41,711 nt of DNA. Origin: Bacillota bacterium (GTDB lineage: Bacteria > Bacillota > UBA4882 > UBA10575). Under the pieces are notes generated by a model. That model was given only the letters and a program-made list of their open reading frames with translations, made no database searches and was not told where the DNA came from. The stretch covers positions 1 through 41,711 of the forward strand of contig JAKOVI010000049.1 in assembly GCA_029782135.1 (NCBI GenBank), in the 5' to 3' direction. The translations under genes and the position numbers were made by a program. Of this stretch, positions 64 through 25,515 are shown one piece after another. How positions within the stretch are numbered: position 1 is the stretch's first letter; every line of letters begins with the position of its first letter.

Positions 64-2161
64 AAGCAGTATTCTTATCCTGCTGGTCCTGACCCTTTTT
101 CTGATGACTCCCGGACTCAAGGCTCAGCTTCCTGGAGTGAAGGTTGTTGAACCGCAAACGGGTGCAGTTCCTCAGGAACAACAGCCAGGGATGGATTTCA
201 TTGTAAATACAACCGATCGTGATCGACTGATTCTCGAGAATGAATATATTGCGGTTGCTGTTAATAATTCGTTTGATGCAACCGGCCGCTTCGGGGTGAA
301 GGTGACCCAGGGCGATCCATTGCGGATCGGCGACGAAGAACAGGCATTAATCTATGGCTTCGAACGGCCTTGGACTTCTTTCACCACCGTACGGATTGAC
401 GGGAAGAATTACATATTTGGCGGACCGACGAAGAAACGCTCCGGGGGGACGGGCGAATACGGGACGATTGTCAGCCCGCCGGCTTGGAATCCAGAACGAA
501 AGAGTATTACGATGACCTGCAGCTATGGTCCTGTTGAGGTTACCCAAGAGATCACGATTGTCGAAAGTACGACGACCGGTTACCCGGATACGGCGAAGAT
601 TAAATATTCGATCTTCAACCGGGATGCTGTGGCGCATGAGATCGGGCTGCGGGTTGTGATCGATACGATGCTTGGTGAAAATGACGGTGCGCCCTTCCGG
701 ATCGGGGAAACGGCGATCCAAACCGACGCGGTCCGCGAGCAAAGTCAGCTCCCCGAGTTTTGGCAGGCGTTTGATACCCTGACCGCACCCAAAGTGATTG
801 CCCAGGGAACCCTGAAGGGGCGGGAAGCAACTCCGCCTGATTTTCTCTACTTTACAAACTGGGGGAGTGTGGCCGACTCCCATTGGGAGGTCCCCCTGGT
901 GCCGGAGCGTGATTTTACCCGGGCCGGCGAGTTCGAACTGGATAGCGCGGCGGTTTATATGTGGCTTCCGGTAACCGTCCCGGCGGCCGGGAGCGCTACT
1001 TATGTGATGTATTATGGATTGGGCGGGGTAACAGTTGTCCCCGGTCAACTGCAGTTGGGGGTTAGCTCCCCGGCGGAGGTTTTATGGGACGAAAGTGAGC
1101 GTACTTTTTCGATTGTGGCCTACATTCAGAATACCGGGGCGGGTCCGGCGATGAGTACCAGGGCCCGGCTTATTCTCCCCCCGACCGGACTGGCCCTCGC
1201 CGGGAAAAGACCGCTGGAAATTTATATCGGGCGGTTGGAACCGGGCGAGATGACCCAACTTCACTGGGAGGTCAAGCCGACCGGAACCTTCGGCAAACTG
1301 ATGCCCTTTGCAGTTGTCGCTTCGGCGATTAATATTCCGGAGAACCGGGTGGAGCGGAGCGTCACGGTGATCGGACCGCCCAAATTGACGTTGACCGTCA
1401 AACCCCCGGCCACCTTAAAGGTCGTGAATGAACAGGTGACACCGTATCCTTATCCCGTGACGGCAATCATTAAAAATACAGGCGAATCGGAAGCCTATGG
1501 GGTTGTAGGTACTTTGCAGCCCGGTGAAGGAATGGAACCGGCGCCGAAAGAGATCCTCCGGCGGTACATCGGTAATTTAATGCCGGGAGAAGAATATGAG
1601 TTGACCTGGTATCTGCGGCCGGAAGGGATCGGAAAACGTTCTTATCTAGGGATTCAGTTTGAATCGAACACGACGAAACCGGTGATGTATATTGCGGGCG
1701 TCCGTTTACCGGTGCTCATGCCGAAGCTGCGCTTGGTCCCGCTTGACAAACCACAAACCGGAGAAGGATTGCTCATTGAAGTGAGGGTGGATAATTTCCC
1801 CTTACTGAGCGGTGTCGAATTTGACTTGCATTATAATCCGGCGTATATGGAGATAAATAAGGTGTTGAAGGGAATCTTCTTTGTCGATCAGCAAACGTGG
1901 CATCCGGGGACGATCAACAACCATGCCGGGAGGGTCACCGGGATTGGCGGAACGCGGATCTCCACTATAACGGGAAATGCTTCGGTCGCTACTTTATATT
2001 GTAAATTAGGAACAACGCCTGGCGAGTGGGAACTAAAGCCGGCGAATATTAAACTCCAAAGCAACCAGGATTTAATTCCGGCGTTCGAGGTTGAAGGACT
2101 GAAAATCAAGATTAATGAGCAGGGGGGAGTGACAATTGATACATTTAAAGTTAGCAAGTAG
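44..2161 (+). CDS. secreted protein with C-terminal cohesin-like domain
   Basis: A 705-residue exported protein. Residues 1-27 form a signal peptide (KPK-rich start, Leu-rich core, cleavage near LKAQ). Residues about 50-340 are a beta-rich region I do not recognise. Two Ig/CARDB-like segments follow (about 340-450 and 455-560); each carries a phrase like NTGAGPA or NTGESEA, typical of CARDB-type domains. Residues 562-705 resemble a cohesin-type domain, with the characteristic GVEFDLHYNP strand near residue 590. Cohesins bind dockerins in cellulosomes, but isolated cohesin-like domains also occur in surface proteins without cellulosomes. The start is an ATG with AAGGAGGAG at 29-37. It overlaps the following SLH gene by 26 nt, so the two are probably cotranslated and both act at the cell surface. 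Function unknown. Confidence 0.75.
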   Translation: MKPKPSKSSILILLVLTLFLMTPGLKAQLPGVKVVEPQTGAVPQEQQPGMDFIVNTTDRDRLILENEYIAVAVNNSFDATGRFGVKVTQGDPLRIGDEEQALIYGFERPWTSFTTVRIDGKNYIFGGPTKKRSGGTGEYGTIVSPPAWNPERKSITMTCSYGPVEVTQEITIVESTTTGYPDTAKIKYSIFNRDAVAHEIGLRVVIDTMLGENDGAPFRIGETAIQTDAVREQSQLPEFWQAFDTLTAPKVIAQGTLKGREATPPDFLYFTNWGSVADSHWEVPLVPERDFTRAGEFELDSAAVYMWLPVTVPAAGSATYVMYYGLGGVTVVPGQLQLGVSSPAEVLWDESERTFSIVAYIQNTGAGPAMSTRARLILPPTGLALAGKRPLEIYIGRLEPGEMTQLHWEVKPTGTFGKLMPFAVVASAINIPENRVERSVTVIGPPKLTLTVKPPATLKVVNEQVTPYPYPVTAIIKNTGESEAYGVVGTLQPGEGMEPAPKEILRRYIGNLMPGEEYELTWYLRPEGIGKRSYLGIQFESNTTKPVMYIAGVRLPVLMPKLRLVPLDKPQTGEGLLIEVRVDNFPLLSGVEFDLHYNPAYMEINKVLKGIFFVDQQTWHPGTINNHAGRVTGIGGTRISTITGNASVATLYCKLGTTPGEWELKPANIKLQSNQDLIPAFEVEGLKIKINEQGGVTIDTFKVSK

Positions 2162-2813
2162 GCAGGTGGTAAAATACTTCTTGGTGCCGGGCTTAATCCT
2201 GTTCCTGCTTGCGGGACCGGCAGCCGGCGCGGCGCGTCCGTTCTCCGATGTCCCGGACTGGGCTTACCAGTCAGTTAAAAAACTTGTGGATAACGGTTAC
2301 TTGGCACTCTACGAAGACGGGACCTTCCGGGGGAACGATCCGGTCGACCGGTATACGCTGGCGATGGTCGTGGCAAAGCTCCTGGTGAATATCGGTGAAG
2401 GGACGACCCCGGCCAGCCGTGACGACCTAAAGTTACTGCGCCAACTCTCCAATGAATTTCAAAATGAGTTGGTCTTACTGACAGTAAAAGATCAAGAACT
2501 TGAGAAACGCCTAAGCAAAATTGAGAAAGAAAAGTTAATCCTGGCCGAGGATCAAACGCTGACGACCATCGACGTCAAAACACTCCGCGAAGAGGTCGGG
2601 TCGATTGCCGCGCAGATCTTGGAGGAAAAAAGACGGGTTGATGCCCTTGACTTTCGGTTGACGGCGGTCGAGGAGAACCAGACGCAACAGGCGAAAGCAA
2701 TTGCCGAACTCAATGCCCAGCTGGCGAAGGAAAGGCAGACGAATCGCTTGCTTTTAGTGATCCTCGGTGTGATCGGGGTGGCAGGGATTTTCCTTCCCGG
2801 TCAGGGCCAATAG
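2136..2813 (+). CDS. SLH / coiled-coil / C-terminal helix envelope protein (Omp-alpha-like)
   Basis: A 225-residue protein. It has a signal peptide (residues 10-32), one SLH domain (about 35-85: FSDVPDWAYQSV, YEDGTFRGNDPVDRYTLA), a long heptad-patterned coiled coil (about 95-203) and a hydrophobic C-terminal helix (204-220, RLLLVILGVIGVAGIFL). SLH domains bind secondary cell-wall polymers or peptidoglycan. This domain order is that of Thermotoga Omp-alpha, a rod-like spacer anchored in the outer membrane by its C-terminal helix. That function is inferred from architecture, not shown. The start is TTG, with AGGGGGG at 2121-2127 giving 8-nt spacing. It overlaps the upstream cohesin-like gene. 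An S-layer-associated protein anchored in the inner membrane is the main alternative. Confidence 0.75.
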   Translation: MIHLKLASRQVVKYFLVPGLILFLLAGPAAGAARPFSDVPDWAYQSVKKLVDNGYLALYEDGTFRGNDPVDRYTLAMVVAKLLVNIGEGTTPASRDDLKLLRQLSNEFQNELVLLTVKDQELEKRLSKIEKEKLILAEDQTLTTIDVKTLREEVGSIAAQILEEKRRVDALDFRLTAVEENQTQQAKAIAELNAQLAKERQTNRLLLVILGVIGVAGIFLPGQGQ

Positions 2814-6917: not shown

Positions 6918-8156
6918 ATGAAAAGAAGGGTAGTCGTTACCGGGATGGGGGTTATCTCCGCCCTCGGGCTTGACGTCCAGACTTTCTGGTCAAATATTAT
7001 AAAGGGTAAATCTGGTGTTTCGCTGGTCGAATCATTTGATACTACGGAGTATGAGACAAAAATCGCTGCCGAAGTAAAAGATTTCGACCCGGTTGCTTAT
7101 TTACCGAAAAAAGAGGTCCGGCGGATGGATCGTTTTGTCCAGTTTGCCGTCGCCGCCACGGCGCAGGCGCTGCAAGATGCCAACTTTAAAATTACGGAGG
7201 AGAATGCCCACGAGGTAGGAGTCTTGATAGGTTCCGGGATCGGAGGGATTAAAACCCTGGAAGAACAAGCCCGGACCCTGTTTGAGAAAGGTCCCCGCCG
7301 GATCAGCCCGTTTTTTATCCCGATGATGATCCCGGATATGGCTTCCGGGCAAGTTTCGATCTATACAGGGGCGCAGGGTCCGAATTTAACGGCTGTGACC
7401 GCTTGTGCCTCCAGCGCCCATGCGATTGGGGAGTCCTTCCGGACAATTCAGTACGGGGATGCAAAGATGATGATTACCGGTGGTACGGAAGCAACCATTA
7501 CCGGACTGGCGATGGCCGGCTTTATTGCGGCCGGCGCTTTGTCAACCCGGAATGACCAGCCGGAGAAGGCGAGCCGGCCGTTTGACGCGACGCGGGATGG
7601 TTTTGTGATGGGGGAAGGGGCCGGGATCTTGATCCTCGAAGAACTTGAACATGCTTTGGCCCGGGGCGCGGAGATTTACGGTGAGATTGTCGGCTATGGT
7701 CTGACCGGTGATGCTTACCATATTACTTCTCCTCACCCGGAAGGAAGAGGCGCGCTGAAGGCGATGGAGATGGCGATCAAAGATGCCGGCTGGCAACTGG
7801 AGCAGGTTGATTATATTAATGCGCACGGCACTTCCACCATTCAGAATGATCTGCTGGAAACAAAAGCGATCAAACAACTGTTTAAAGAAAAGGCCTCCCG
7901 TCTGGCCGTGAGTTCCACAAAGTCGATGACCGGACACCTTTTGGGCGCCGCCGGGGGAGTGGAAGCGATCATCTGCTTACTCGCGCTCAAGCACGGGATT
8001 ATTCCTCCGACGATCAACTATGAAGTTCCTGATCCGGAGTGCGACTTGGATTATGTTCCCAACAAAGCGAGGGAGCAGCAGATTACTAACGCGCTCTCGA
8101 ATTCGTTCGGCTTTGGCGGCCACAACGCGACTTTGGCTTTTGCCAAGTACGAATAA
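6918..8156 (+). CDS. fabF: 3-oxoacyl-ACP synthase II FabF
   Basis: A 412-residue elongating ketosynthase that condenses malonyl-ACP with acyl-ACP. The Cys-His-His triad is visible: Cys163 (TACASSAHA), His303 (NAHGTST) and His340 ([13 protein letters not shown]). The C-terminus [15 protein letters not shown] is typical. ATG with CGAGGTG upstream. No fabH, fabK/fabI or fabZ is present in the cluster, so initiation, dehydration and enoyl reduction must be encoded elsewhere. Confidence 0.96.
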
Positions 8157-8164
8157 GGGAAGAA

Positions 8165-8193
8165 GGTCCCCCAGCCGTGGGGGACCACTTCTT
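8165..8193 (+). terminator. terminator after fabF
   Basis: A perfect 9-bp stem, GGTCCCCCA (8165-8173) / TGGGGGACC (8178-8186), with a 4-nt loop follows the fabF stop. The T-tract is weak (ACTTCTT). The gap up to rnc (8194-8372) also holds a small hairpin, CTCTTCT/AGAAGAG at 8274-8290, and no visible gene. Confidence 0.7.
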
Positions 8194-8372
8194 AACGATA
8201 TAACAGCATATTACAACGTTTAAGCCGGCTGCGTTGTGGGTAAAGAAGGTTTTTACTAAGTTTTTTTGTTGCTCTCTTCTAAAAGAAGAGTCCTCGACCA
8301 TATATATCATACTGGGCTCTTTTTCAGTAAAGAACAACGCAAAAGCTTAGTTCATGAAGAGAAGGTTGTAAG

Positions 8373-9077
8373 ATGAAGACAGGGGATCCGTTACAAAAGA
8401 TACCGGAATTAGCGAATAAGCTGGGCATCTTCCAGGATAAACTTGCCATCCTCACCAGGGCGCTGGCCCATCGTTCCTATACGCACGAAACAGGGGGGGA
8501 ATCCAACGAACGTTTGGAGTTTTTAGGGGATTCCGTTCTCTCCCTGGTGATCAGTGAATATATCTACCAGCATTTCCCGCACAAGTCCGAGGGCGAACTT
8601 TCAAAATGGCGGGCCTACCTGGTCAGCGCCAAAACATTAGCGAAGATCGCCAAAAAAATCGAACTCGGTCAATATCTGTTATTAGGCCATGGTGAAGATA
8701 AGTATGGCGGGCGGGAACGCAGTTCCATCCTGGCTGATGCGCTGGAAGCGATGATCGCTGCCATTTACCTGGAATATGGTTGGGAAAAGGTGAAGGCGTT
8801 TATTCTTGAGCAATGGGAACCATACCTGACGTTGATGAATAAGTATAAACAACCGCTTGATCCGAAAACCCGTTTGCAGGAAGCCCTTCAAAGTAAAGGT
8901 TCCGCTCCCCAGTATCAATTACTCAAGATGGAGGGCCCCGACCACCTCCGGGTTTATACGATGGGGGTTTATGATCAGCAGCGGCTCATCGGGAAAGGAA
9001 GCGGCCAAAGCAAGAAACAGGCCGAGCAGGAAGCGGCCGAGGAAGCCCTGAAGTTTTTGGCGAAAAATTCAGAGTAA
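8373..9077 (+). CDS. rnc: ribonuclease III
   Basis: A 234-residue RNase III, the double-strand-specific endonuclease for rRNA processing and mRNA turnover. The catalytic signature NERLEFLGDSVL lies at residues 45-56 (Glu49 and Asp53 among the metal ligands). A second acidic cluster LADALEAMIAAIYLEYG is near 120-136. A dsRNA-binding domain occupies about 165-232 (DPKTRLQEALQ, GSGQSKKQAEQEAA). Its place between fabF and smc is the conserved Bacillota order, here interrupted by spoVS and a sigma gene. ATG with AGAAGG upstream. Confidence 0.96.
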   Translation: MKTGDPLQKIPELANKLGIFQDKLAILTRALAHRSYTHETGGESNERLEFLGDSVLSLVISEYIYQHFPHKSEGELSKWRAYLVSAKTLAKIAKKIELGQYLLLGHGEDKYGGRERSSILADALEAMIAAIYLEYGWEKVKAFILEQWEPYLTLMNKYKQPLDPKTRLQEALQSKGSAPQYQLLKMEGPDHLRVYTMGVYDQQRLIGKGSGQSKKQAEQEAAEEALKFLAKNSE

Positions 9078-9189: not shown

Positions 9190-9450
9190 TTGGAGATCCT
9201 AAAAGTCTCAGCTGGCTCTAATCCTAAATCAGTTGCCAGGGCTTTGGCAGCGGTCATCCGTGAAAACACAAGTGTTGAACTTCAAGCGGTTGGAGCAGGC
9301 GCTGTTAACCAAAGCATCAAAGCGATCGCGATCGCCCGGGGCTATGTGGCACCCAATGGTATTAATCTGGTTTGTATTCCTGCTTTTTCGGAGATCATGA
9401 TTGACGGGGAGGAAAGAACGGCAATCAGGCTAATCGTCCAACCACGGTAG
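9190..9450 (+). CDS. spoVS: stage V sporulation protein S
   Basis: An 86-residue SpoVS, a small Alba-like protein needed for normal spore coat and core maturation in Bacillus. The whole sequence fits the family: MEILKVSAGSNPKSVARALA at the start, VGAGAVNQSIKAIAIARG in the middle and an IRLIV end. TTG start with GGAGGG 9 nt upstream. It has its own SigH-type promoter and its own terminator, so it is a single-gene unit inserted between rnc and smc. Confidence 0.95.
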   Translation: MEILKVSAGSNPKSVARALAAVIRENTSVELQAVGAGAVNQSIKAIAIARGYVAPNGINLVCIPAFSEIMIDGEERTAIRLIVQPR

Positions 9451-19977: not shown

Positions 19978-20003
19978 GAGGCGGGAATCATCCCGCCTCT
20001 TTT
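19978..20003. terminator. bidirectional terminator between nfnB and lipoprotein gene
   Basis: GAGGCGGGA (19978-19986) and TCCCGCCTC (19991-19999) form a perfect 9-bp stem with loop ATCA, followed by TTTT on the plus strand and an A/T-rich tail on the minus strand. It ends both converging units. Confidence 0.85.
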
Positions 20004-21024
20004 ACAATTCATTGAGGTAGATATACTGTTGTTCACTCCAAAAACTTACGTTACCACTTTTGTCGAAACTGCTGACCGCGTAGCCCAGTTTCCCGTCCCG
20101 GAACAAATTGGCAGTGATCTGATCAAGATAAGAATGGGTTCCCGGCGGCACTTCCGCCAGGTAGACAAAACGCCCTTCTTGATTGGTACGGTAGATATAG
20201 TACCCGGCCAGATCGGGTTCATATACCTCCTCCCAACTGAGCTCAAAGAGTCCTTGCTCAATCTTCCTGATATTAAAATTTTCCGGCGTAGCCGGGGTGG
20301 AGTCGATTACTCCTTTCACATTTGCGCCCCCGTCTGCTTCGATTGTTAGCTGGGTGTTTTTTCCTGCCCTGATCGTAAAGGTAAAGTAGGGACTCCGGTA
20401 ATAAACTGTCCCGGTTTTTTGCGGGATATAAATCTCCCCCTGATAAGTCCCTTCCGGAATTTTACCTTCACCGCGCAGCCAATCGCCGTCCAGTTCCAGA
20501 TCGATTGTTTTGGAAGTACCGCTTTTCGGATCGGGATAGTAATAAAACCGTCCTTTGGTTACTTCCACCCCAAGGGCGCGCAGTCCCGAAATTTCCATAG
20601 CAATTTCCAAGCTGCCGGGGGCCGGTAAAAGCAAGATAAAAACCTCAACTGTTTTCCCCGGATCAATGTTGAGGGTAGATTCTCCGTAAAAAATACAATC
20701 TTCAGACTCATCAATCCCGGATACTTCAATCTTCCAGGTTCCCGGATACAGGGAATCAAAGACGATCGTCTGTTCACCCTCACCGTTGTAAGCAACTGTT
20801 TTGCTGCGGGGGGGAATTTTTTGGTGGCTGAGGGTGACTTGGAGCATCATGATCGCACTGCCGGCCGCCCTGGTTGTAATTTGTTCCCTTTCGGCGAGGT
20901 TGATATGGAGACAAAGAGTGGCGGGGTCTTTTCCGGGGAAGTAAGGGTCTTTCAGACAAGCGCTGCCGGCTAAGAAGAAACAGAAGAGGAAGAGCGGAAG
21001 AAGTAACCTGTTTCTAGGCGCCAT
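20002..21024 (-). CDS. lipoprotein-like secreted protein with fibronectin type III-like domain
   Basis: A 340-residue protein with an N-terminal signal (residues 5-21) and Cys23 in LAGSAC. This resembles a lipobox but has Gly rather than Leu/Val/Ile at -3, so lipidation is likely but not certain. Residues about 60-125 and 130-235 are beta-rich segments in which KTVEVFILLLPAPGSLEI resembles carboxypeptidase-regulatory-like repeats. Residues 245-335 resemble a fibronectin type III domain (TPENFNIRKI, FELSWEEV, YYIYRTN, YAVSSFDKSGNVS). Probably an envelope protein exposed outside the cytoplasmic membrane. ATG with GGAGG 11 nt upstream. A terminator (21121-21148) separates it from the upstream amidase. 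Specific function unknown. Confidence 0.7.
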   Translation of the reverse strand: MAPRNRLLLPLFLFCFFLAGSACLKDPYFPGKDPATLCLHINLAEREQITTRAAGSAIMMLQVTLSHQKIPPRSKTVAYNGEGEQTIVFDSLYPGTWKIEVSGIDESEDCIFYGESTLNIDPGKTVEVFILLLPAPGSLEIAMEISGLRALGVEVTKGRFYYYPDPKSGTSKTIDLELDGDWLRGEGKIPEGTYQGEIYIPQKTGTVYYRSPYFTFTIRAGKNTQLTIEADGGANVKGVIDSTPATPENFNIRKIEQGLFELSWEEVYEPDLAGYYIYRTNQEGRFVYLAEVPPGTHSYLDQITANLFRDGKLGYAVSSFDKSGNVSFWSEQQYIYLNEL

Positions 21025-21205: not shown

Positions 21206-21844
21206 TTATTGGCCCATATGCTCAACGATCCCGCGGTAAATATAATACGCTTCCCGCCAAAGATATTCGGGATTACGTAGTTTCTGCTCTTCCTGCGGAT
21301 TGGTGATAAAGGAGGCTTCGGTCAGGATCGCCGGCATTTTTGTATGACGGAGCACATAGAAATTAGCGGAATTTGCGCCCAAGTCGCGAAGTTTCGTCAT
21401 TTTCAACAAGCTTTGTTGCACTTTGTTCCGGAGATCGCGGCTTTGCCAGCCGGCGTTGGTTCCGGAATAAACGGCGGTGCCGTTATGGGCCGGATTGACG
21501 GAACCGTTATGATGAATCGAGATAAACCGGTCGGCCCCGCTGGTATTGGCCTTGACGACGCGGGAGGACAAGGAGTGATAACGGTCATCAACCCTCGTCA
21601 TGACGACGGTGGCGCCCCCGTATTCGGTGAGACAATTCCGGAGGTATTGGGCGACCCGTAAGTTAATCTGTTTTTCCGTTAAACCATTGACGCCGACGGC
21701 GCCCGGATCCCACCCGCCATGCCCGGCATCAATCACAAATTTTTTCCCGGCGAGTGGTTTGGTTGCCGCCGCTGCGGTTAGTTGGATCACGATCAGCAGG
21801 GCAACGGTGGTTAAGCAAAAAATAAGATACTTTTTCTTTCGCAA
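21206..21844 (-). CDS. N-acetylmuramoyl-L-alanine amidase (Amidase_3)
   Basis: A 212-residue secreted zinc amidase that cleaves the bond between MurNAc and L-Ala. The signal peptide spans residues 5-26. Zinc ligands and catalytic residues of the Amidase_3 fold are visible: His42 (DAGHGG), Glu57 (TEKQINL), His111 (ISIHHNGS) and Glu176 (ILTEASF). It is CwlD/AmiC-like and consists of the catalytic domain only, without a separate wall-binding module. TTG start with AGGAGG 8 nt upstream. It lies 35 nt downstream of the beta-barrel protein gene and is probably cotranscribed with it. Confidence 0.92.
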   Translation of the reverse strand: MRKKKYLIFCLTTVALLIVIQLTAAAATKPLAGKKFVIDAGHGGWDPGAVGVNGLTEKQINLRVAQYLRNCLTEYGGATVVMTRVDDRYHSLSSRVVKANTSGADRFISIHHNGSVNPAHNGTAVYSGTNAGWQSRDLRNKVQQSLLKMTKLRDLGANSANFYVLRHTKMPAILTEASFITNPQEEQKLRNPEYLWREAYYIYRGIVEHMGQ

Positions 21845-21879: not shown

Positions 21880-23052
21880 TTAAAAGGCGGTGGCAAACTG
21901 GAGCGATAACCGGTTATAGCGGGAGAGTTCCAGTTTATCGACACTCGGTTCAAAGATGGAATCAAAGCCAAATTCTAGACTGGTGGCTGGCGAGAAGGAT
22001 TTACAAAGACGCCCGGAGAAGACCAATTGTGCTCTAGAAAATTCAGTTTGTTCGGGGGAGAACAACAATCCGCCTTTGATAGTGGTCGTCCAGTTGTTGT
22101 TGAGATTGTGTTGCCAGGCGCCGCCGAACCCGTAAGAATTCAAGGTGTAGATTTCGCCTTTGTCGATCTCATTCAAAGCGGAAGAGACCGGTGCAAATCC
22201 TTTCGCAAAATACCAGGCATAAAGATTATAGATCTGGCTGGCAACTGCTTTGTTCCAGGAGACTAAGCTTCCAAAAGCGCCGTCGTGTTTATATTCTTGG
22301 AAATTATCCTTTCCTGGCCGGTACCAGACGACTTCACTTTGGAGGGTGCCGCCATAGGCATTCGCAATCAGATCGAAGCCGACGGCCGTTTCACTCAGAT
22401 CCCCGGTGGGCGTGGTCACCAGAGTCATCCCGAGCATATATCCTGGTTTGGGGAGGGCAATCCGGAACCCAAACTGATCATCACTGGTGATCTTGAGCTT
22501 TTCCTCGTTTAAACCCTGGGTGTTTAAATAAAGGCGGGAGTAGTAGCCGCCAAAGTAAACGTCGGTATTGCCGGTTTGTAATGCAATCCCCTGGATCGGG
22601 GAGGTTTGATGGTCGGCAATCAGCCCAAGCGGATCCAGGGTAAACTTAAACTTGCCTAGATCGGCCAGGAGATTGGAAGAACGGTACCTGACAGCCGCTT
22701 CATCGACATATAAATGATTGATATAGCCATAATTGTCATAATGACCTAAGAGCAGATAAAAGTAGAAGTTTTGGTCAATATGCGAATCAAGGTAAATGTT
22801 TAAATGGTTTTTGAGATCCGGCGTCCGGTATTCTTCGTATACCCGTTGTTTGTAATCGGCCGTGAGACTGAATTCTCCGCCCAATTGAAAACGCCCCCAC
22901 CGGCTTTCCAAATTTGCCAGGCGCTTGGCGATTGTTGTCTCCGCTGCCTCGACGCGCTGGCAAGGTGTGAGCAGGAAGAGCATCAACGCGAAACAGGAGA
23001 TTAAAAAGGACATCCCAAGAAGTTTAAGAGCTTTTGTGCGAGAGTGTAACAA
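21880..23052 (-). CDS. predicted outer-membrane beta-barrel (porin-like) protein
   Basis: A 390-residue exported protein. The signal peptide ends near VEAAE (mature start about residue 37-38). A short helical, coiled-coil-like stretch (TIAKRLANLESRWG) follows, then alternating amphipathic strands rich in Tyr, Phe and Gly to the end, e.g. FYFYLLLGHYDNYGYI, VYFGGYYSRLYLN, LSLQFATAF. The terminal Phe and the aromatic-girdle pattern are those of outer-membrane barrels recognised by the BAM machinery. It has no SLH domain, unlike OmpM porins of Negativicutes. ATG at 23067 lies inside GGAGGAAG, so TTG at 23052 with 8-nt spacing is preferred. It heads a minus-strand unit with the amidase. Transport specificity unknown. 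Confidence 0.72.
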   Translation of the reverse strand: MLHSRTKALKLLGMSFLISCFALMLFLLTPCQRVEAAETTIAKRLANLESRWGRFQLGGEFSLTADYKQRVYEEYRTPDLKNHLNIYLDSHIDQNFYFYLLLGHYDNYGYINHLYVDEAAVRYRSSNLLADLGKFKFTLDPLGLIADHQTSPIQGIALQTGNTDVYFGGYYSRLYLNTQGLNEEKLKITSDDQFGFRIALPKPGYMLGMTLVTTPTGDLSETAVGFDLIANAYGGTLQSEVVWYRPGKDNFQEYKHDGAFGSLVSWNKAVASQIYNLYAWYFAKGFAPVSSALNEIDKGEIYTLNSYGFGGAWQHNLNNNWTTTIKGGLLFSPEQTEFSRAQLVFSGRLCKSFSPATSLEFGFDSIFEPSVDKLELSRYNRLSLQFATAF

Positions 23053-23197
23053 TGAATCTTCCTCCATTTCTGTGCATGATTTGAGTTACGACGGCTTAAA
23101 GGCGTGCAAGTATAAAAGGATCGTTGGCTGAATCTTGGTACTGATGGCAGGAATCCGGCGAAACCTCCGGTTGCTTCATTAGCTTCTCTTTTTTAAT

Positions 23198-23349: not shown

Positions 23350-23535
23350 TTAAGACTGCCGGCTTAACATCTCTTCGGCCTTCTGGATCAGGCCGCGTAC
23401 GAGGAGACCGGCTTCGCGGGTAGTGAGATTGCTGTAGTCGTAGTAATTCCCTTCGCGCCGGATCCGGTCCGCAAAACCAAGTTCCTTTGCGATTTCGTAT
23501 TTAACCCGATCGGAGACGATACTACGGCGTGCCAC
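23350..23535 (-). CDS. alpha/beta-type small acid-soluble spore protein
   Basis: A 61-residue SASP that coats and protects DNA in dormant spores. Family features: VSDRVKYEIAKELGF with the KYEIA site cut by the germination protease GPR, and the C-terminal LTTREAGLLVRGLIQKAEEM. The frame is open further upstream to an ATG at 23589. GTG at 23535 has GGGAGG exactly 7 nt upstream and gives the compact length expected, so it is chosen. Two hairpins follow. No clear SigG promoter was recognised. Confidence 0.85.
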   Translation of the reverse strand: MARRSIVSDRVKYEIAKELGFADRIRREGNYYDYSNLTTREAGLLVRGLIQKAEEMLSRQS

Positions 23536-23695
23536 AGCTCCACCTCCCAACCTTATTTTCCCCGCTTTGTTGCGCGGAAAATCATTCAATTATTACCTCA
23601 GGGGGACCAAGGAAAGGCGTAATTTTTTATCCAATGCGCGCGTGCATAGCGATGAATCTTTTAAAGAAAAATAAAAAAAACAGGGAGGGGAAAAG

Positions 23696-24126: not shown

Positions 24127-25515
24127 TTGAAGCCAGGTGATCATGTTTATTTTATTGGCATTGGCGGTGCGCGCTTAAGCGCTTTGGCCAAAATTTTACT
24201 GGAGAGCGGGTATCGAGTCTCCGGTTCTGACCGGACGCGCAGCCGGAATACGACCGAGCTCGAGAAGAAAGGGATTAAGATCCATTATGGCCATGACGAA
24301 CAGCAGATCACTGATGAAATTGATGTTGTTGTCTATACGAATGCCGTTGGTGAAGATAACCCGGAACTGTTAAAGGCCAGGGAAATGAAGCTTCCCATCT
24401 ATGAAGGGGCCGAACTGTTAGGCCTGCTGATGAAGGAGAAGGGGGTCGGGATCGCCGTCGCCGGGACCCATGGAAAGACAACCACCACCGCGATGATTGC
24501 TTTACTCTTAATTGAAGGGGGTAAAGACCCGACCGTCGAAGTTGGCGGCGAGATGAAGGAGTTGGTGGGGAACTACCGGACCGGAAAAGGCCCCTATTTC
24601 GTGGTCGAAGCGTGTGAGTTCCGCCGTTCATTCCTTTACCTTTCACCCAAAATTGCGGTGATTACCAACGTCGATTGGGATCACCCGGACTGTTTTCCAA
24701 CCGCCGGTGATGTCGTCCGGACTTTTCAAGAGTTCATTTCTTTGGTGCCTCCCGACGGAAAGGTTGTCTGTTGGCGGGATGATCCCAATTTTCCGGAGTT
24801 GGCCGCCGCCGCGCGGGCGCCGCTACGAACCTTTGGTCTCTCCTCGGAGGCGGATTGGTCTTGTCAACAGATTGAATGGTGTGCGCCGCTCGGGATCAAA
24901 GGCCGTCTATTTCATGCCGGGCAAGAGGTTGGTGAACTAAAATTAAATGTGCCGGGCGAATATAACATCCTAAATGCTCTTGCTGCGGTGGCGACCGTGG
25001 CTGAAGTGGGGGTACCGGTCAGTGATGCCCTGGTTTTCCTCCAGGAATTTACCGGTGTGCGCCGGCGGTTTGAAGTGAAAGGGGAGGCCGGCGGGGTCAT
25101 CGTGGTCGATGATTATGCCCATCACCCACGGGCGGTGAAAAACATTTTAAAGGCGGCGCGCGAGCAATTTTCCGGCCGCATCTGGTGTGTCTTCCAACCG
25201 CACCTCTATAGCCGGACGAAGTATCTCTTCGACGATTTCGCGCAGGCTTTTCGGAACGCCGATATCCTTGTCCTGGCTGATATCTATGCCGCCCGGGAGA
25301 CTGATCCGGGTGATATTTCCAGCCGGCTTTTAGCCGAGGAAACGAAGAAATATCATTCTGACGTCCGGTATATTGGTGGATTAGAACAGATTAAAGAGCA
25401 TTTATTAACCGCGACCCGTCCGGGGGATTTGGTGATTACGATGGGCGCCGGTGATGTCTATAAGGTCGGGGAGGATTTTCTCGAGGCCAAACTGGAAAGT
25501 CTTAAGTCCAGGTAA
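24127..25515 (+). CDS. murC: UDP-N-acetylmuramate--L-alanine ligase (MurC-type)
   Basis: A 462-residue Mur ligase that adds L-Ala to UDP-MurNAc. It shows the N-terminal Rossmann YFIGIGGARLSALA, ATP loop AGTHGKTTTT near residue 117, NVDWDHPDCF, the central GEYNILNALAA, DDYAHHP and the closing VITMGAGDVYKVG. Two positions differ from textbook MurC: GIGGARLSALA replaces GIGGIGMSGLA, and VEACEFRRSFL stands where many MurC proteins have EADESD. The latter variant is, to my knowledge, common in clostridial MurC. TTG start, AAAGGA 9 nt upstream. It lies away from any dcw cluster, so it may be the only MurC or a second copy. Confidence 0.85.
   Translation: MKPGDHVYFIGIGGARLSALAKILLESGYRVSGSDRTRSRNTTELEKKGIKIHYGHDEQQITDEIDVVVYTNAVGEDNPELLKAREMKLPIYEGAELLGLLMKEKGVGIAVAGTHGKTTTTAMIALLLIEGGKDPTVEVGGEMKELVGNYRTGKGPYFVVEACEFRRSFLYLSPKIAVITNVDWDHPDCFPTAGDVVRTFQEFISLVPPDGKVVCWRDDPNFPELAAAARAPLRTFGLSSEADWSCQQIEWCAPLGIKGRLFHAGQEVGELKLNVPGEYNILNALAAVATVAEVGVPVSDALVFLQEFTGVRRRFEVKGEAGGVIVVDDYAHHPRAVKNILKAAREQFSGRIWCVFQPHLYSRTKYLFDDFAQAFRNADILVLADIYAARETDPGDISSRLLAEETKKYHSDVRYIGGLEQIKEHLLTATRPGDLVITMGAGDVYKVGEDFLEAKLESLKSR

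Follow-up and report, generated by a model that had tools for sequence, protein, structure and literature searches.

An SLH-less outer-membrane barrel and a separate candidate SLH tether in a class of diderm, spore-forming Bacillota

The window analysed here (the whole 41,711 nt of contig JAKOVI010000049.1, from a Bacillota bacterium) carries a gene that was read from its sequence as encoding an outer-membrane beta-barrel protein of a sporulating host. The OmpM proteins of Negativicutes carry an SLH domain that tethers them, while the product of this gene has none. This raises two questions: whether the host has an outer membrane, and what attaches that membrane to the cell if the porin does not.

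The barrel and its gene

21880–23052, minus strand: SLH-less outer-membrane beta-barrel protein, 18 predicted strands, TTG start at 23052
21883–21912, minus strand: C-terminal beta-signal RLSLQFATAF, with a terminal Phe that is invariant in the porin family

The open frame extends to an upstream ATG (21880–23067, minus strand). The TTG at 23052 is preferred over the ATG at 23067 because it lies just downstream of a GGAGGAA Shine-Dalgarno sequence, and because three relatives (L006, L071 and L073) have an in-frame stop between the Shine-Dalgarno sequence and the start, which upholds the start chosen in the sequence-only reading. A signal peptide was judged by inspection (hydrophobic N-terminus, VEA-A site), and the mature chain is about 354 residues. 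Its aromatic fraction is 0.157 and its period-2 hydrophobic alternation is above that of shuffled sequences (z 2.2, reached by 2 of 200 shuffles), bearing out the alternating, aromatic-rich strand pattern first noted. The Phe ending, taken as a BAM recognition feature, was found in all 17 aligned homologues, and a Pfam scan confirmed that there is no SLH domain. No Pfam or NCBIfam model assigned the protein to a family, and none matched when the 17 homologues were scanned with Pfam; a Colicin_D match (E 0.11) was discarded as noise.

An AlphaFold2 model computed from a 17-row alignment has 18 beta-strands over mature residues 20–353 (pLDDT 81, pTM 0.79). Its best structural matches by Foldseek and VIA-align are complete barrels, those of OprD/Occ channels and AlgE (Z ~25 over ~310 residues, 6–12% identity), and the barrel of Veillonella parvula OmpM1 is also matched over its full length (Z ~19). 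Closure of the barrel was judged from these end-to-end matches to complete barrels, and the porin-type barrel proposed from the sequence is borne out by the predicted structure.

The nearest folds, substrate-specific Occ channels and AlgE, are likewise 18-stranded, so the barrel could be a substrate-specific or export channel (OprD/Occ-, CymA- or AlgE-like) rather than a general porin. However, likeness of fold at such low identity reveals no substrate, no family model joins the porin to these channels, and a protein found class-wide, in one copy per genome and beside cell-wall genes fits a housekeeping role. A specific channel is conceivable but the less favoured reading; it concerns only the use of the pore and does not exclude the arrangement proposed below. 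For the product itself we infer a pore function.

Porin homologues were found in 27 of the 29 genomes of the class, at identities down to ~24–30%, and in one genome of the sister class (G029). The relatives with a name comprise Bacillota MAGs, several of which bear digester-type isolate names, together with one Hydrogenispora sp. The family was not detected in class genomes G017 and G018. Three neighbouring genes recur with the porin:

20002–21024, minus strand: predicted lipoprotein with lipobox LAGSAC, following the amidase and conserved across the porin family
21206–21844, minus strand: Amidase_3 N-acetylmuramoyl-L-alanine amidase, immediately downstream of the porin gene
24127–25515, plus strand: Mur ligase (MurC/Mpl type), divergent from the porin

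Much of the family, and the sister-class genome too, retains the porin-amidase pairing, and of the class neighbourhoods read only that of G016 lacks a Mur ligase beside the porin. In G029 the homologue lies between FtsZ-like and amidase genes (L040:4435-7045), suggesting a link with division. A second SLH-less barrel candidate is encoded elsewhere in the host (L061:7779-8903, contig C142); it ends in SMSLQF and has a weak match, below the cut-off, to the SlpA barrel domain PF21620 (E 0.0019).

A host with two membranes that sporulates

9190–9450, plus strand: spoVS
23350–23589, minus strand: alpha/beta-type small acid-soluble spore protein (SASP)

The host assembly (163 contigs, 96.6% complete) was searched for bamA, lpx and lpt genes, and all three kinds were found. 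It encodes three Omp85 proteins, TolC-family proteins and two OmpH-like proteins, one of the latter confirmed by Pfam. On contig C17 the BamA gene is surrounded by genes for LpxD, LptD_N proteins and OmpH-like proteins. Contig C4 carries genes for LpxC, FabZ and LpxA and for LptC/LptA-type, LptB-type and LptF/G-type proteins; of these, LpxC and the LptA-type protein were confirmed and the others were named from sequence. LpxC is present in 29 of 31 genomes and Spo0A in all 31. The LptD model PF04453 had no match in the 31 genomes, nor did the TamB model give a match. A lack of LPS transport, as might be read from the absence of PF04453, is countered by the LptD_N-domain proteins encoded beside BamA and OmpH. 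One of these (L034:12153-14420, contig C17; 755 aa) is unmatched by PF04453 and may be a divergent LptD or a barrel-less form. On contig C119, a patatin-like phospholipase gene is found near a gene for an Omp85/POTRA protein (L036:2890-4629 and 7157-8440), as if a patatin-Omp85 secretion system had been split.

With its Omp85, Lpx and Lpt genes, SpoVS and SASP in the window, and Spo0A throughout its relatives, the host is a diderm, sporulating member of the Bacillota, as first proposed. Such organisms are known in kind, the Limnochordia being described so in a passage of PMC11456536 that cites Taib 2020. The suggestion of a lineage such as Limnochordia holds for the two membranes and sporulation, and the placement in that class is plausible.

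A candidate tether on a separate polypeptide

An SLH-less porin would need another protein for attachment, and following up this inference brought out a candidate, not mentioned in the sequence-only reading, within the window itself. To that extent the prediction stands; the tethering function itself is proposed.

2136–2813, plus strand: candidate outer-membrane tether (Omp-alpha-like), composed of a signal peptide, a single SLH domain of OmpM type, a helical stalk and a C-terminal apolar helix
34098–35300, minus strand: exported protein with three SLH domains (a triplet of S-layer type) and a C-terminal domain; conserved across the class, no SLH-barrel fusion

The host has only three SLH proteins, these two and a paralogue of the candidate on contig C51 (L058:8406-9110) with the same build of signal peptide, single SLH domain, helical stalk and C-terminal apolar helix. 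The SLH domain of the candidate matches PF00395 (E 3.7e-7), and proteins of its type are present in 28 of the 29 class genomes, including both of those in which the porin was not detected. The tether profile matches V. parvula OmpM1 at E 5e-24 and Deinococcus radiodurans SlpA at 1.5e-20, against only 2.7e-5 for the S-layer protein Sap. Profile alignment to Negativicutes OmpM by hhalign (99.4%, E 8.7e-22) stops at the proximal stalk, and the NCBIfam SLH-porin model NF033921 is matched at positions 13–112 of 485 only. The position of OmpM1 Tyr36, a residue whose role is described in PMC10628300, is invariant in type A tethers (WAYQ), and TRYE is kept in nearly all those of type B. The SLH domain and proximal stalk are thus homologous to those of OmpM and SlpA.

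Beyond that point the proteins differ. All 22 tethers compared, from the class and its sister, finish with an apolar run of 13–23 residues (mean hydropathy ~2.1–3.2) followed by 0–3 residues, and they all lack the basic tail that a type I anchor of the inner membrane would be expected to carry. The stalk is helical, low in Pro and Gly, and ~60–160 residues long in the class. Folded from its single sequence, the 2136–2813 product is predicted as helix at low confidence (pLDDT 53). The start of the tether gene shares 26 bases with the frame at 44–2161, which encodes an exported protein of 705 aa whose CARDB and cohesin-like matches are weak. An OmpA/Pal-type tether was also considered and rejected: the only OmpA-family match in the genome is MotB, beside MotA-, FliL- and FliM-like genes.

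A similar pair of layouts is known from Thermotoga, where Omp-alpha (OmpA1) has an SLH domain, a coiled coil and a C-terminal transmembrane helix, and Omp-beta (OmpB) is an SLH-less barrel whose last residue is Phe (PMC9388160, PMC3387000); the two have been suggested to associate (PMC9388160). By architecture alone, which is the level of this comparison, both systems consist of two separate proteins. They differ in that the host here is a sporulating member of the Bacillota, the Thermotoga stalk is ~316 residues, ompA1 and ompB are adjacent, and 22 strands are reported for Omp-beta against the 18 predicted for the porin.

It is probable that in this host the function of OmpM is divided over two polypeptides in a manner resembling Omp-alpha and Omp-beta. 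The porin would be inserted into the outer membrane by Omp85 (BamA) through its C-terminal beta-signal, and tethering would be carried by the 2136–2813 product and its C51 paralogue. The C-terminal helix of the tether would sit in the outer membrane, and the protein may oligomerise and contact the porin, so that the pair would jointly do what OmpM does with SLH domain, coiled coil and barrel in one chain. Several observations count against this model. The two genes lie ~19 kb apart in the window and do not share an operon, G017 and G018 have a tether with no detected porin, and the heptad signal of the P0002 tether stalk, taken alone, is not above shuffles (z 0.1), although it is significant in several homologues (z up to 6.3).

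The main uncertainty of the model is the membrane in which the helix lies. A hydrophobic C-terminal helix of this hydropathy could stop in the inner membrane, in which case the stalk would link that membrane to the wall and the outer membrane would be held by other means; the lipoprotein beside the porin and the nearby three-SLH protein are alternative holders. Against this, the SLH domain and stalk are of OmpM/SlpA rather than S-layer type, the apolar runs are often only 13–15 residues and lack a basic cytoplasmic tail, and an outer-membrane location is reported for Thermotoga Omp-alpha, which is built likewise (PMC9388160). Insertion in the inner membrane is accordingly considered unlikely, and an outer-membrane position for the helix is preferred.

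OmpM in the class and the origin of the pair

No SLH-barrel fusion was found among the SLH-positive frames of the 29 class genomes, 22 of which are at least 90% complete. These frames are short tethers, three-SLH proteins and one secreted protein of esterase-like type. About 20 of the frames were read from end to end, and the rest were classed by their length and by how many SLH matches they had. Of three long SLH frames read in the class or its sister group, two are a three-SLH protein (G023, C436) and the esterase-like protein (G019, C28). The sister class, represented by the single genome G029, has both forms, an SLH-coil-helix protein (L083) and a true SLH-barrel protein of 942 aa (L153, C85), and Negativicutes-type genomes carry ordinary OmpM. 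The class therefore seems to have retained only the helix-anchored form. SLH-coil-C-terminal-helix proteins of ~230–690 aa with longer stalks were also seen in many other families of the phylum (L118–L140), some of which have long SLH proteins as well.

The fragmented state of the host assembly, the SLH-barrel protein of G029 and the literature placing OmpM in Limnochordia (PMC10628300, PMC9388160) could together mean that an ordinary OmpM was missed and that the barrel is an undescribed porin beside it. This is very improbable, since a chance gap would be needed in every one of 29 genomes, most of them nearly complete.

22879–22944, minus strand: start of the mature porin chain, AETTIAKRLANLESRWGRFQLG, a short helix and first strand resembling the OmpM stalk-barrel junction

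The porin barrel has a fold like that of OmpM1, but there is no significant sequence homology to the OmpM or SlpA barrels, nor any sequence similarity to the SLH-barrel protein of G029. In OmpM and SlpA the SLH domain, stalk and barrel share one chain, whereas here they are on different polypeptides and the tether ends in a helix. The N-terminus of the porin (KRLANLESRWGRFQLGGEF) was aligned unprompted by hhalign to the OmpM stalk-barrel junction (VRVSALENRVGNVKLTGDA). The score of 31.5 carries a probability of only 9%, but 40 column shuffles gave at most 20.8 and other coiled-coil profiles 17–19. The alignment is suggestive of a split OmpM and is no proof of it. It is possible, though doubtful, that an ancestral OmpM parted at this junction into the porin and the SLH-stalk protein. 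On this reading the tether would retain OmpM as far as the proximal stalk extends and would have acquired a helix for the outer membrane, and the porin would retain the last turns of the stalk with the barrel. In that case tethering and pore would have been separated throughout a class of diderm spore-formers, giving an intermediate state of relevance to the loss of the outer membrane.

It has been suggested (PMC5007114; PMC9388160, the latter citing Witwinowski 2022) that diderm Bacillota ancestrally tethered their outer membrane with OmpM and that failure of this tether was one way in which the membrane was lost. A divided tether and porin across a class of Bacillota appears to be new, and an earlier report of Omp-alpha-like proteins in the lineage is possible. 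Spore-formers with two membranes that, as a class, do without OmpM and have helix-ended SLH stalks of OmpM type would represent a second solution to tethering within the Bacillota, one that would parallel that of the Thermotogae and bear on how bacteria gained or lost their outer membranes.
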